From NCBI GenBank assembly GCA_938005475.1, contig CALLNY010000014.1:62001-126000 (forward strand): DNA of 64,000 nt, read 5' to 3'. Of the stretch, positions 10,189 to 16,223 are shown piece after piece. The notes under the pieces were generated by a model. That model was not told the origin of the DNA and did no database searches. It was given only the letters and a program-made list of their open reading frames with translations. Position numbers and translations under genes: made by a program. Within the stretch, counting starts at the first letter, position 1. Every line of letters starts with the position of its first letter. Source of the stretch: an uncultured Bacteroidia bacterium. Lineage in GTDB: Bacteria; Bacteroidota; Bacteroidia; J057; CALLMJ01.

Positions 10189-10383
10189 ATGAAAATTATA
10201 CTATTCCTCATTTTAAGTTCGTCCATTTTCAGTTGTAAAAAAGAAAAGAACACTCAAACGGTTAATCATAACCTAAACACTAATAACAACTCGCCCTACG
10301 GCACAGTTGAAAATACCTATGGTTTCAATTTGTTAAAAAAAATATCAGGCAGGACCTCTAACCTCAACTACTATGATTGGTAA
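10189..10383 (+). CDS. Lipoprotein N-terminal fragment, probably frameshifted from the next frame
   Basis: From ATG 10189 the frame encodes a lipoprotein signal peptide (MKIILFLILSSSIFSC, lipobox cysteine at residue 16), then a short Asn/Thr-rich linker, and stops at 10383 after only 64 residues. A second frame (+1) opens at 10337 and runs to 11188 with the body of a beta-rich protein but no signal of its own. The reading frames meet at an A8 run (10335-10342); one A fewer would join them. Either the gene is broken here, the run is a slippage or phase-variation site, or the assembly has one extra base. The leader and promoter look intact. Confidence 0.6.
   Translation: MKIILFLILSSSIFSCKKEKNTQTVNHNLNTNNNSPYGTVENTYGFNLLKKISGRTSNLNYYDW
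10335..10342 (+). repeat. A8 homopolymer at the frame junction of a lipoprotein gene
   Basis: Eight adenines lie where the leader frame and the downstream +1 frame are both open (the downstream frame has a stop at 10334-10336). Loss of one A would give a continuous lipoprotein. This is a plausible site of polymerase slippage or of an indel error. Confidence 0.6.
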
Positions 10384-11188
10384 TTTCCCCGAGTGGAGGA
10401 GTGTAAGACCTATTTCTGCCGCACAAGTTTCGGGAAAGAACGAATTGGATAAACATAACGGTATTTTTTTAGGTTTCTTCACCGCTAAATATAAAAACGA
10501 GTATCGTTTATGTTTTCGTAATGGAGGGCTTTTCAGAGGACGGTCTTATTTTTGCTTTGTTGAAATAAAAAAAGGAATAAGTCGTGCTCATTCTGAAGTG
10601 ATTTTTGTGAAGAATAGTATATATTTACGTTCTTACACTAATAAAAATAATACACTGCAAACAGTCCTGCATATGAGTTGGGAAGCAAAATTACAACATA
10701 CTTCTGCCCAAAATGCTATCCATTTATTTCAATTCCCTAAAAAAGAATTAGTAAAAGATTTTTCTACGACTTTCGATGGTGCCGCCGAATCCATTTATTT
10801 TGCATCAGGACTTGATCCCTACAAAGAAGCTAATCACCCCTATTTAAGTAAAACAAATGTTTCTTTTACTTTGGCTTCTAATTTAACTCCCAACCCAAAT
10901 AAAAACGTGTTTTTAGTGATTACTTCTCAACCGCTTATGAATGGTATTACATATATCCCACAAAACTTAAAATATCAAAACAGGTATGTTCAGGTCAAAG
11001 CAAGTGAAAACTCCTTTACTTTCAATTATATGCACCCAGGCACTTACTACTTGTATGCTTTATACGATAATGATGGAAATGGAAGCATCGGAAATGGTGA
11101 CTGGATGAACGCAACCACAACCCCATTTACTCTAAATCCCCACACAGAATTCAATATTACTACTAACATCAATTTTATTATTTTTTAA
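10373..11188 (+). CDS. Body of the frameshifted lipoprotein, unknown function
   Basis: The first ATG of this frame is at 10373, overlapping the leader fragment by 11 bases, and it gives 271 residues with no signal peptide. The sequence is beta-rich, with PGTYYLYALYDNDGNGSIGNGDW near the C-terminus. This resembles the Ig-like or carboxypeptidase-regulatory fold seen in Bacteroidota lipoproteins, including a possible DNDGNGSIGNGD calcium-type loop. It is most likely the mature part of the lipoprotein that begins at 10189, with the true junction at the A8 run. Translation coupling through the overlap is an alternative, but it would leave the product in the cytoplasm. It ends 1 base before the CoA-transferase start, so both are likely on one mRNA. 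Confidence 0.6.
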   Translation: MIGNFPEWRSVRPISAAQVSGKNELDKHNGIFLGFFTAKYKNEYRLCFRNGGLFRGRSYFCFVEIKKGISRAHSEVIFVKNSIYLRSYTNKNNTLQTVLHMSWEAKLQHTSAQNAIHLFQFPKKELVKDFSTTFDGAAESIYFASGLDPYKEANHPYLSKTNVSFTLASNLTPNPNKNVFLVITSQPLMNGITYIPQNLKYQNRYVQVKASENSFTFNYMHPGTYYLYALYDNDGNGSIGNGDWMNATTTPFTLNPHTEFNITTNINFIIF

Positions 11189-12374: not shown

Positions 12375-12944
12375 ATGTCTAATTACTTATTTGAAATTGG
12401 AGAAAGAAATTATCCTATTGAGGACTGTTACATCTTCGGTTCTTTTGAAGATGGATATGATAAACAAGTTCAGTGGAATATTGTAGTAGAGTTTCCAGGA
12501 GAGGATGTTCATGCCTCCTTTGAAAATATAACTCTGAAAAATGTAAATAAATTTGAAGATTTAGAAAATAAAGCTTTTATTTTAGAAGAACATGACTTAG
12601 AAGAAGAGTTTCTTTATGAAGGAATAGACGAAGATTTTATTTATGTAGATGAAATTCATTTTGGAAAAATCAATAAAGAAAACCAAACTATTGATATTGA
12701 AGTATTAGGAATTGCCGCAGATGAATTCATTGAAAGTGATATTAATGACGAAGAAGAAATAGAAGGAGAAGAACTTAATATCCATTTAAATGCTCAATTT
12801 GAAGGAATTTATTTCTTTACTGAAAACAAAAAAAATGTAGAAAAATTTGTAAAAAACTACTTAAAAAAAGAATTAAGTGAAGTAAAAATTGAATTCGAAA
12901 AAGAAGAAGATGACGATTGGTGGAACTGTATTATAACCTATTGA
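12375..12944 (+). CDS. Acidic cytoplasmic protein of unknown function
   Basis: The 189-residue product has no signal peptide or membrane span. It is unusually rich in Glu and Asp (for example EEHDLEEEFLYEGIDEDF and ESDINDEEEIEGEEL), so its pI should be very low. It ends in a short acidic and aromatic tail (EKEEDDDWWNCIITY). A promoter-like TATAATTTCG lies just before the ATG. The stop is 1 base from the next gene, a UMF1 transporter. No family was recognised. The alternating beta-strand and acidic-loop pattern could suit a small protein-binding domain, but this is speculation. Confidence 0.7.
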   Translation: MSNYLFEIGERNYPIEDCYIFGSFEDGYDKQVQWNIVVEFPGEDVHASFENITLKNVNKFEDLENKAFILEEHDLEEEFLYEGIDEDFIYVDEIHFGKINKENQTIDIEVLGIAADEFIESDINDEEEIEGEELNIHLNAQFEGIYFFTENKKNVEKFVKNYLKKELSEVKIEFEKEEDDDWWNCIITY

Positions 12945-14263: not shown

Positions 14264-14271
14264 TAAATTTG
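14264..14271 (+). promoter_or_regulatory. -7 promoter box (TAAATTTG) before the purE-like gene
   Basis: TAAATTTG matches TAnnTTTG and lies 34 bases before the ATG at 14306. No convincing TTG is seen at -33. Confidence 0.5.
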
Positions 14272-14305
14272 CAACATTTCATTTAACTTAAACGTAAAAG
14301 TGAGT

Positions 14306-14815
14306 ATGACAAAAGATATTTTAATCGTAGTAGGTTCAACAGAGGATATCAGTTTAATGAAGGATGCGATTTTATTTTTAGAAAAAATAGGAGTTGCTTA
14401 TGACATTACTGTTTGTCATCCTCAATTGAGCCCAGTTGAATTTTTCAATTTGGGTAGTAATGCACATAAACAGAACTACAAAGTAGTAATAGGAGCTTCT
14501 TCAGACTGCCCCGCTATTGCAGGTAATTTTGCAGCTTTAACTCCGTTGCCTGTAATATCTGTACCTATTGTAAGAAATCATCCCGTAGGTGGATTAGATG
14601 CAATCCTAACTACTTTACAAATGCCTGGTGGTGTGCCCGTTGCAACGGTCAGCACGAATACACCCCAAAACGCCGCTCTACTAGCTTTGCAAATGCTTGC
14701 TATTGCCCATCCCGCCTACCAAGAAATTATTATAGCCTACAAAAAAAAATTAAACGATGATATTGTAGAACAAAATAAAAATCTTCAAGCGAATCTATCT
14801 AATTATGTCTTCTGA
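14306..14815 (+). CDS. purE: PurE-superfamily protein, divergent (N5-CAIR mutase-like)
   Basis: Canonical PurE converts N5-carboxyaminoimidazole ribonucleotide to CAIR in purine synthesis. The 169-residue product follows the PurE fold: VVGSTEDISLMKDA at the N-terminus, ASSDCPAIAGNFAALTPLPV in the middle, QMPGGVPVATV later, and a C-terminal NAALLALQML helix. Several usual active-site residues differ. The GSxSD motif is GSTED, the SAHR motif becomes VCHP (histidine kept, arginine lost), and the GGAAHLPG loop is SSDCPAIAG without its histidine. It may be a fast-evolving true PurE or a paralogue with another substrate. ATG 14306 is chosen over GTG 14300 because the first beta-strand starts directly after it. 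It overlaps the next gene by 11 bases. Confidence 0.75.
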   Translation: MTKDILIVVGSTEDISLMKDAILFLEKIGVAYDITVCHPQLSPVEFFNLGSNAHKQNYKVVIGASSDCPAIAGNFAALTPLPVISVPIVRNHPVGGLDAILTTLQMPGGVPVATVSTNTPQNAALLALQMLAIAHPAYQEIIIAYKKKLNDDIVEQNKNLQANLSNYVF

Positions 14816-15671
14816 ACGACCTATTAAATTCATCGTTGCTTTATTTATAGTAGGGGTTCTTTCGATTGAATGCGATAGAGTAAAAGAACCTTTTGTAGAG
14901 GTTCAAGAAGCAGTAGATACTACTTGGAACCCCATTTTCCCTGAACGTACGAACCCAATAAAAAAAGTCCTTTTAGAAGACTTTACAGGGCATCAGTGCG
15001 GAAATTGCCCGCGCGCCCATGAAGAAGCCCAAAATATCCTGAATTTGTACCCCAACAAAATAGTACTTCTCAGTGAACATGTAGGCTATTTTGCAGAAGT
15101 AAGAATTTCAGGTAAGTATACTTACGATTTCAGAACCCAAGTAGGTAATGAAATTGATAATGAATTCGGAGCATCAGCCGCAGGTCTACCAAAAGGCATG
15201 ATTAATCGTTTAACTTATAATAATTCTAAAATCCACGATAAAAATACTTGGAATACCTTAGTAAATCAAGCTTTACAATCTACTCTCCAAGCAGATATTC
15301 AAATACTGTATAAATGGACTAATAATCAAGAAAAACTTAATGTAGCCGTACAAGCCCGAAAATTAGAGAACCTCAGTAACAACTTAAAATTATTTGTTTA
15401 TCTAGTTGAAGACTCCATCATCAATTGGCAAAAAGATTATAGCAAAAACCCCCAAGATATTCCAGATTATGTACACCGTCATGTTTTGAGAGGCTCTTTT
15501 AACGGTACCTGGGGAGATAATGTATTATGGGATAATAACCTTCTCTTCGAAAAAAAATATGCACTTAACATCAATCCAAGTTATAACAAACAAAAACTTT
15601 ACGTTATCGCAGGGCTTTATGACTTTAACACCAAAGAAATTATCCAAGTGGAAGAAATTAAAGTTCAATAG
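14805..15671 (+). CDS. Omp28-type lipoprotein with thioredoxin-like domain
   Basis: The 288-residue product begins with a short hydrophobic leader ending in a lipobox (VGVLSIEC, Cys23), so it is an exported lipoprotein. The segment KKVLLEDFTGHQCGNCP carries a CxxC (CGNC) motif at the start of a thioredoxin-like fold, followed by the conserved LLSEHVGYFAE. This matches the Omp28/PG28-related outer-membrane protein family of Bacteroidota. The C-terminal half is a beta-rich domain. Whether the CxxC pair is redox-active is not known for this family. The gene overlaps the purE-like gene by 11 bases, which suggests translational coupling. Confidence 0.82.
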   Translation: MSSERPIKFIVALFIVGVLSIECDRVKEPFVEVQEAVDTTWNPIFPERTNPIKKVLLEDFTGHQCGNCPRAHEEAQNILNLYPNKIVLLSEHVGYFAEVRISGKYTYDFRTQVGNEIDNEFGASAAGLPKGMINRLTYNNSKIHDKNTWNTLVNQALQSTLQADIQILYKWTNNQEKLNVAVQARKLENLSNNLKLFVYLVEDSIINWQKDYSKNPQDIPDYVHRHVLRGSFNGTWGDNVLWDNNLLFEKKYALNINPSYNKQKLYVIAGLYDFNTKEIIQVEEIKVQ

Positions 15672-15674
15672 ATT

Positions 15675-16223
15675 ATGTTTGATTTTGATAATCATGAATT
15701 GGTTTCAGGAAAATTTATTCTCAATATCATTCATGGTCTTGGTGATAACGCTTCATGGGTATTTAATCTAATAAAGAACAATAATCTCCCTGATTTACAG
15801 CCCAATAAAGACTATCCCGTTCTCGTATGTCTTCAAATCCTTGAAACACTAAAACACCAATCTGGTCCCAATACCCTCTTCAGGCTTGGAATAGAAACCT
15901 CTAAACGCTATAAAATACGAGAACTCTACAGCAACCTACAAACTCCGCATGACTTATTTCCACTTTTTAATCTTGCCTATTCTTTAAATATTAAAACTTA
16001 TGAAGATATTAATTACTACTATTATGAAAAAAAATCTGAAAATCAAGTTATTTTCAGGTCGCAAACGCCCTTTCATTGTGAATTTGAAAGAGGTTTTTTT
16101 ACAGGAATTCTTAACCATCAATTCAGTATTCCCTTTCAAAATATTGAAATAACCCATCTCCCTGAATTAGCTTGTAGAAACTATGGCAATAGTTATTGTA
16201 ATTATTTAATTACTTGGTCATAA
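15675..16223 (+). CDS. Hypothetical protein, possible V4R/heme-NO-type C-terminal fold
   Basis: The 182-residue product has no signal peptide and was not assigned to a family with confidence. The N-terminal part (SGKFILNIIHGLGDNASWVF) and the ending HLPELACRNYGNSYCNYLIT have the look of V4R/DUF2378-like small ligand-binding domains. These often finish with an E-x2-C-(x)n-G-x2-C-hydrophobic strand. The paired cysteines near the end may bind metal or act structurally. It lies 3 bases after the Omp28-type gene and 6 bases before nadB, so it is probably part of the same operon. Confidence 0.6.
   Translation: MFDFDNHELVSGKFILNIIHGLGDNASWVFNLIKNNNLPDLQPNKDYPVLVCLQILETLKHQSGPNTLFRLGIETSKRYKIRELYSNLQTPHDLFPLFNLAYSLNIKTYEDINYYYYEKKSENQVIFRSQTPFHCEFERGFFTGILNHQFSIPFQNIEITHLPELACRNYGNSYCNYLITWS

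Follow-up and report, generated by a model that had tools for sequence, protein, structure and literature searches.

The window (the whole 64,000-nucleotide stretch of DNA from an uncultured Bacteroidia bacterium that was analysed) carries an altered paralogue of the purine enzyme PurE. By its sequence and its modelled fold, the encoded product is an AIRC/PurE-family protein, a variant within the known PurE superfamily, in which the PurE fold is kept and the N5-CAIR mutase active site lost, the catalytic histidine included. The same genome holds an intact purE and a purK, and we tentatively prefer, at somewhat less than even confidence, the reading that the window gene encodes a PurE pseudoenzyme, that is, a non-catalytic subunit or binder beside the intact PurE and PurK.

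Gene, fold and active-site residues of the window protein

The gene (Table 1) is preceded by an MFS (Atg22-like) gene, and its 3' end runs over the start of an Omp28-type lipoprotein gene. Purine enzymes are absent among the seven neighbouring proteins scanned with Pfam and NCBIfam, and both the overlap and the non-purine context had been recognized by a sequence-only reading made earlier on the same DNA. Upstream of the ATG, the candidate element TAAATTTGC resembles the -7 promoter element of Bacteroidota. In the whole window, TANNTTTGC occurs 37 times versus 18.9 expected, an excess that would fit a promoter element of Bacteroidota. Three further ORFs, at 12375-12944 (189 aa, rich in Asp and Glu), 15675-16223 (182 aa), and 10373-11188 (271 aa), all close to the gene, were matched by neither Pfam nor NCBIfam at E <= 0.001.

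Table 1. Features of the PurE-like gene and its flanks in the window (substitutions in E. coli numbering; residue ranges in window numbering)
Feature	Position	Strand	Evidence or remark
TAAATTTGC	14264..14272	+	33 bases before the ATG of the PurE-like gene; consensus match only
PurE-like paralogue, 169 aa	14306..14815 (stop included)	+	ATG at 14306; ORF, PF00731, NCBIfam purE below cut-off, fold
GSTED (residues 10-14) replacing GSxSD	14333..14347	+	Ser16 and Asp19 kept; Ser18>Glu
HPQL (residues 38-41) replacing SAHR	14417..14428	+	Ser43>His, His45>Gln, Arg46>Leu
SDCPAIAG (residues 66-73) replacing GGAAHLPG	14501..14524	+	His75>Ala, Leu76>Ile
QMPGGVPVATV (residues 105-115), conserved PurE core segment	14618..14650	+	Alignment
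HPAY (residues 135-138), the HxxY motif common to altered PurE copies	14708..14719	+	Alignment
Omp28-type lipoprotein gene	14805..15671	+	11-base overlap with the 3' end of the PurE-like gene

The protein reaches 124 bits against PF00731 (AIRC/PurE; Pfam cut-off 30) and 123.7 bits against the NCBIfam purE model TIGR01162, the latter below the curated cut-off of 149.6. An AlphaFold model built from 41 sequences has a mean pLDDT of 88.4, with low values (59-60) in blocks of residues 91-110, and its fold is partly assumed because the underlying alignment was canonical PurE. The 50 PDB chains among the matches listed are all PurE, with TM values normalized by the query of 0.83-0.94, and the structure of the H45Q mutant of E. 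coli PurE is among the fold matches of the model. Membership in the PurE family and the PurE fold, as claimed from the letters of the DNA, agree with these results.

Residues were placed in register with E. coli K-12 PurE. The sequence-only reading had matched SAHR to VCHP, out of register by two residues; in three phmmer alignments to PDB chains, without gaps there, and in MAFFT, the counterpart of SAHR is HPQL. With this register, a glutamine (window Gln40) stands at the position of the catalytic His45 of E. coli, a replacement that had been missed. The other changes it had listed were seen correctly, namely GSTED for GSxSD, with Glu in place of Ser18 in the alignment with E. coli PurE, the retention of QMPGGVPVATV, and the loss of a Ser, an Arg, and the loop His, which are Ser43, Arg46, and His75; for the GGAAHLPG loop, the change itself stands, and the aligned residues are SDCPAIAG, one residue shorter than the SSDCPAIAG that had been given.

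Histidine occupies both the His45 and the His75 columns in 115 of 115 ORFs (114 distinct), an unfiltered set that equals the 119 aligned ORFs minus the window copy (L002) and three paralogues from other genomes (L112-L114). All three of these paralogues keep His45, and one of them (L113) has Gln at His75. According to one study, the catalytic histidine is a universal feature of class I and class II PurE; E. coli PurE is inactive with Asn, Gln, or Trp in its place, and A. aceti PurE with Asp or Gln there retains mere traces of activity (PMC9376930). The window protein resembles class I PurE (N5-CAIR mutase; PF00731, TIGR01162) in fold, length, QMPGGVPVATV, Ser16, and Asp19, whereas it departs from it at the catalytic His (Gln), Ser18 (Glu), the Ser and Arg of SAHR (His and Leu), and the GGAAHLPG loop (Ala at His75), falls below the NCBIfam cut-off, and does not lie beside purine genes. 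From these residues, we infer that it would be devoid of mutase activity. An identity as class II PurE (AIR carboxylase) was rejected as well, given that the same histidine is stated to be universal there (PMC9376930) and that the window protein has Gln40.

Canonical purE, purK and altered copies in related genomes

The genome to which the window belongs (2.63 Mb in 105 contigs, listed as 100% complete) contains two AIRC genes at E <= 0.001, the window copy and, on contig 92, a canonical purE (221.8 bits, with intact GSKSD, SAHR, and GGAAHLPG), in addition to a purK on contig 5 (343.4 bits, above the curated cut-off of 318.4). With an intact purE and purK present, the purine pathway probably has no need of the window copy. 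The second purE and the purK that the sequence-only reading had advised looking for are thus both found, on other contigs, in line with its suggestion of a paralogue with another role, and the presence of a canonical purE in this very genome is at odds with a state in which all Bacteroidota share the substitutions and no second purE exists. That reading was therefore right in part: its paralogue view is supported, its residue alignment was shifted, and it overlooked that the catalytic His is gone.

Counting this genome (G000), a second AIRC gene is present in 4 of the 22 genomes of the order, the others being G002, G006, and G010, while one more member of the order (G016) has a LarB-type AIRC match only. 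A genus-mate, G001 (96% complete), has canonical PurE only, so that the altered gene may be dispensable, lost there, recently gained, or hidden in a gap. The neighbouring MFS gene has no match in G001, G002, G006, or G010 and the Omp28 gene reaches only 22 bits, and for this reason no empty site is readable in G001. Beyond the order, samples of 395 genomes from the class and 395 from the phylum were searched, and being samples, they leave room for further carriers. The number of matches was counted for each genome in both samples. Two matches were found in the class sample in 11 further genomes of family f50, in G259, and in G026; G259 has two canonical PurE copies, and in G026 one gene is split over two contigs. 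At the G259 loci (L152, L154), both PurE genes look canonical, one of them beside a purK-like ORF. In G335, which belongs to another order (77% complete), the sole AIRC match (221.5 bits) is of the altered kind; the 13 genomes of that order comprise G335 with its altered copy, 11 in which canonical PurE is accompanied by a highly divergent AIRC gene, and one without a match. Outside the class, the phylum sample yielded 15 genomes with two matches, the second being of LarB type in 14 (motifs recognized by pattern in seven and by reading in seven) and a fragment of 48 positions in one.

LarB is an AIRC-domain protein of nickel-pincer cofactor synthesis and, as a distant relative with the PurE fold and another reaction, bears some likeness to the window protein. 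LarB-type frames span 224-322 residues and carry DVGxxGIHR-, GMEGAL-, and SCxxG-like motifs, whereas the window protein has 169 residues without them; a LarB identity was rejected by this length and by motifs unseen on reading.

The altered copies vary from one family to another. Those of f6 (L112, L114), f2 (L113), and f77 (L193) keep His45 and have lost Ser18, Ser43, and Arg46. The 11 copies of f50 have lost most PurE motifs, with an alignment that is uncertain in those regions, and the three scanned with Pfam scored 42.9, 34.9, and 27.5 bits, the last of them below the cut-off of 30. An HxxY at window residues 135 and 138, noticed after the fact, occurs in 16 of 16 altered copies (5/5 non-f50, 11/11 f50), and in 123 canonical rows, picked by GSxSD-like and mostly also SAHR patterns that are uninformative for those columns, the His is present in one, the Tyr in two, and both in none. 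At 16 loci of f1, f2, f6, and f50, 15 of them in genomes that also carry an altered copy, the motifs of canonical PurE are intact, the frames having been selected on SAHR and HLPG. The window copy may be one of a small set of altered copies in a few Bacteroidia families, a claim that we hold less firmly than that of the lost activity.

A search around the copies of f6, f2, f77, and f50 revealed no gene that neighbours them in more than one family. The neighbours are a putative membrane-barrel ORF that overlaps in f6, a CBS-domain gene in f2, and dnaN- and lpd-like genes in f77. Pfam was run on three neighbours, namely the CBS gene, the barrel ORF of f6, which had no match, and a single neighbour from f50; the remaining names were read from sequence. 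At the six f50 loci L184 and L187-L191, the remodelled AIRC gene stands in divergent orientation to adjacent ftsX- and uppP-like genes; ribF-like genes, and at some loci truB-like ones, lie farther away, again named from sequence. Separately, three loci of Sulfurovum MAGs (L034, L040, L052) have two AIRC genes each, separated by some 2.5-2.6 kb; the second gene has GMAAHLAG as its loop, together with either SAHK or SAHR.

Possible roles and origin of the window copy

As a pseudoenzyme, the window protein would mix into the PurE octamer, or form a PurE-like oligomer of its own that binds a ligand or partner, and such a non-catalytic subunit would tune the assembly or activity of PurE, as prozymes do. 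That it may join PurE is suggested by the octameric fold, PurE being described as a homo-octamer (PMC11451730), by co-occurrence, and by two precedents (PMC3663545, PMC3261824). In trypanosomatids, a catalytically dead paralogue, the prozyme, is kept beside the active enzyme and activates its partner (PMC3663545); in contrast to the present case, other enzymes and organisms are concerned, and complex formation has been shown there. In Methanobacteria, a second, less similar PurE domain, PurE', lies beside the normal one and may be structural (PMC3261824), but PurE-PurE' is one fused gene in organisms with no purK, whereas the window genome has separate genes and a purK. Counted against the subunit reading is that no neighbour conserved between families points to a pathway, and against a set of pseudoenzymes that the copies of f2, f6, and f77 keep His45. 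By analogy with these systems, the window protein may act as a non-catalytic subunit or binder that tunes PurE, which is the most tentative step of the account. The broader proposal, a family of PurE-derived pseudoenzymes, present in a few Bacteroidia lineages, that would unite the f2, f6, and f77 copies (His45 kept), the window copy, and the remodelled f50 copies and supply a bacterial PurE prozyme as a regulatory or assembly subunit, is doubtful.

The chief rival of the PurE-subunit reading, itself on the unlikely side, is a new ligand or reaction: the pocket of a neofunctionalized enzyme would bind another small molecule and carry out different chemistry, like LarB from the same fold. The pocket is rebuilt, with Glu13 adjoining the retained Asp14 (window residues), a Gln at residue 40, and a Cys within the loop that held the His, and LarB is an earlier change of reaction on the PurE fold. 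However, no candidate catalytic set is conserved across the altered copies, the loop varies between families, and the neighbourhoods suggest no substrate.

Either function, the PurE subunit or the new enzyme, could also belong to a private, fast-evolving duplicate of the genome's own purE, in which HxxY and the lost Ser and Arg would be convergent. This origin is unlikely, and the evidence on it is mixed. In the AU test (without f50), grouping the window copy with its own canonical PurE and that of G001 gives a p of 0.58 and is not rejected; the genus-mate lacks an altered copy; and of 25 sites that mark the other altered copies, the window copy agrees with those copies at only 5 and with the canonical rows at 4, with 5 altered states in the top canonical row and 4 in each of the next two. 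On the other side, Ser66, Ala99, Leu128, His135, and Tyr138 of the window copy are common to f2, f6, and f77, and in the tree with f50, a branch with support of 90/90 has 31 canonical rows on one side and every altered copy, the window's included, apart from them. When the marker sites are chosen from pairs of families, the window copy has 5 of 13-16, the canonical maximum is 3-4, and the left-out f2 and f77 copies have 11 each, so that the marker-site test weakly favours a common origin of the window copy with the other altered copies. With f50 included, only 10% of the trees unite the five non-f50 copies, in a bootstrap that had not settled, and without f50, they are grouped at 76/69, the four others without the window copy at 98/88. 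The window branch is very long (2.33 with f50, 10 without), and by pairwise identity the window copy stands as near to canonical copies (28-39%) as to most altered ones (33-40%). On the strength of the trees, the AU test, and the marker sites, a common origin is likely for the f2, f6, and f77 copies and no more than plausible for the window copy with them; for f50, a common origin with the other altered copies would rest on HxxY and on a tree with very long branches.

The reading frame of the window copy is maintained. When the genome's own purE was allowed to drift neutrally to 37% identity, the frame stayed open in 0 of 2000 simulations and gathered 6.8 stops on average (no indels), against none in the 169 codons of the window copy. 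A gene decaying without function would account for the loss of most active-site residues and for the long branch, but this open frame, together with the conserved core segments, a confidently modelled fold, and an ordinary GC3, makes decay very unlikely. No close orthologue of the window copy was found in the genomes searched. Among the other altered copies, dN/dS is 0.12 (NG86) for the f6 pair and, for those f50 pairs with values, most pairs being saturated, 0.11-0.41 by NG86 and 0.17-0.80 by YN00, highest in pairs with L195 (0.24-0.80).

Weakest of all is the view that the protein still works as an N5-CAIR mutase or AIR carboxylase despite its unusual active site, as the divergent but functional PurE of the sequence-only reading: Ser16, Asp19, and QMPGG are kept and the His>Gln form of the A. 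aceti enzyme retains traces of activity, but His45 is given as universal in class I and II PurE and its change to Gln as inactivating in E. coli, all in one source (PMC9376930), and the genome has an intact purE and purK, leaving this hardly credible.

Significance

For the preferred reading, a PurE pseudoenzyme beside the intact enzyme, no case of such control of a bacterial PurE was found in the open-access literature, among the matches listed, the nearest being the methanobacterial PurE-PurE'. Altered copies of this kind may carry a PurE annotation. A copy that is kept without the catalytic His beside an intact PurE would offer a natural test of the scaffold without catalysis, and if PurE is regulated by the window protein, bacterial purine synthesis would be subject to control at this step.
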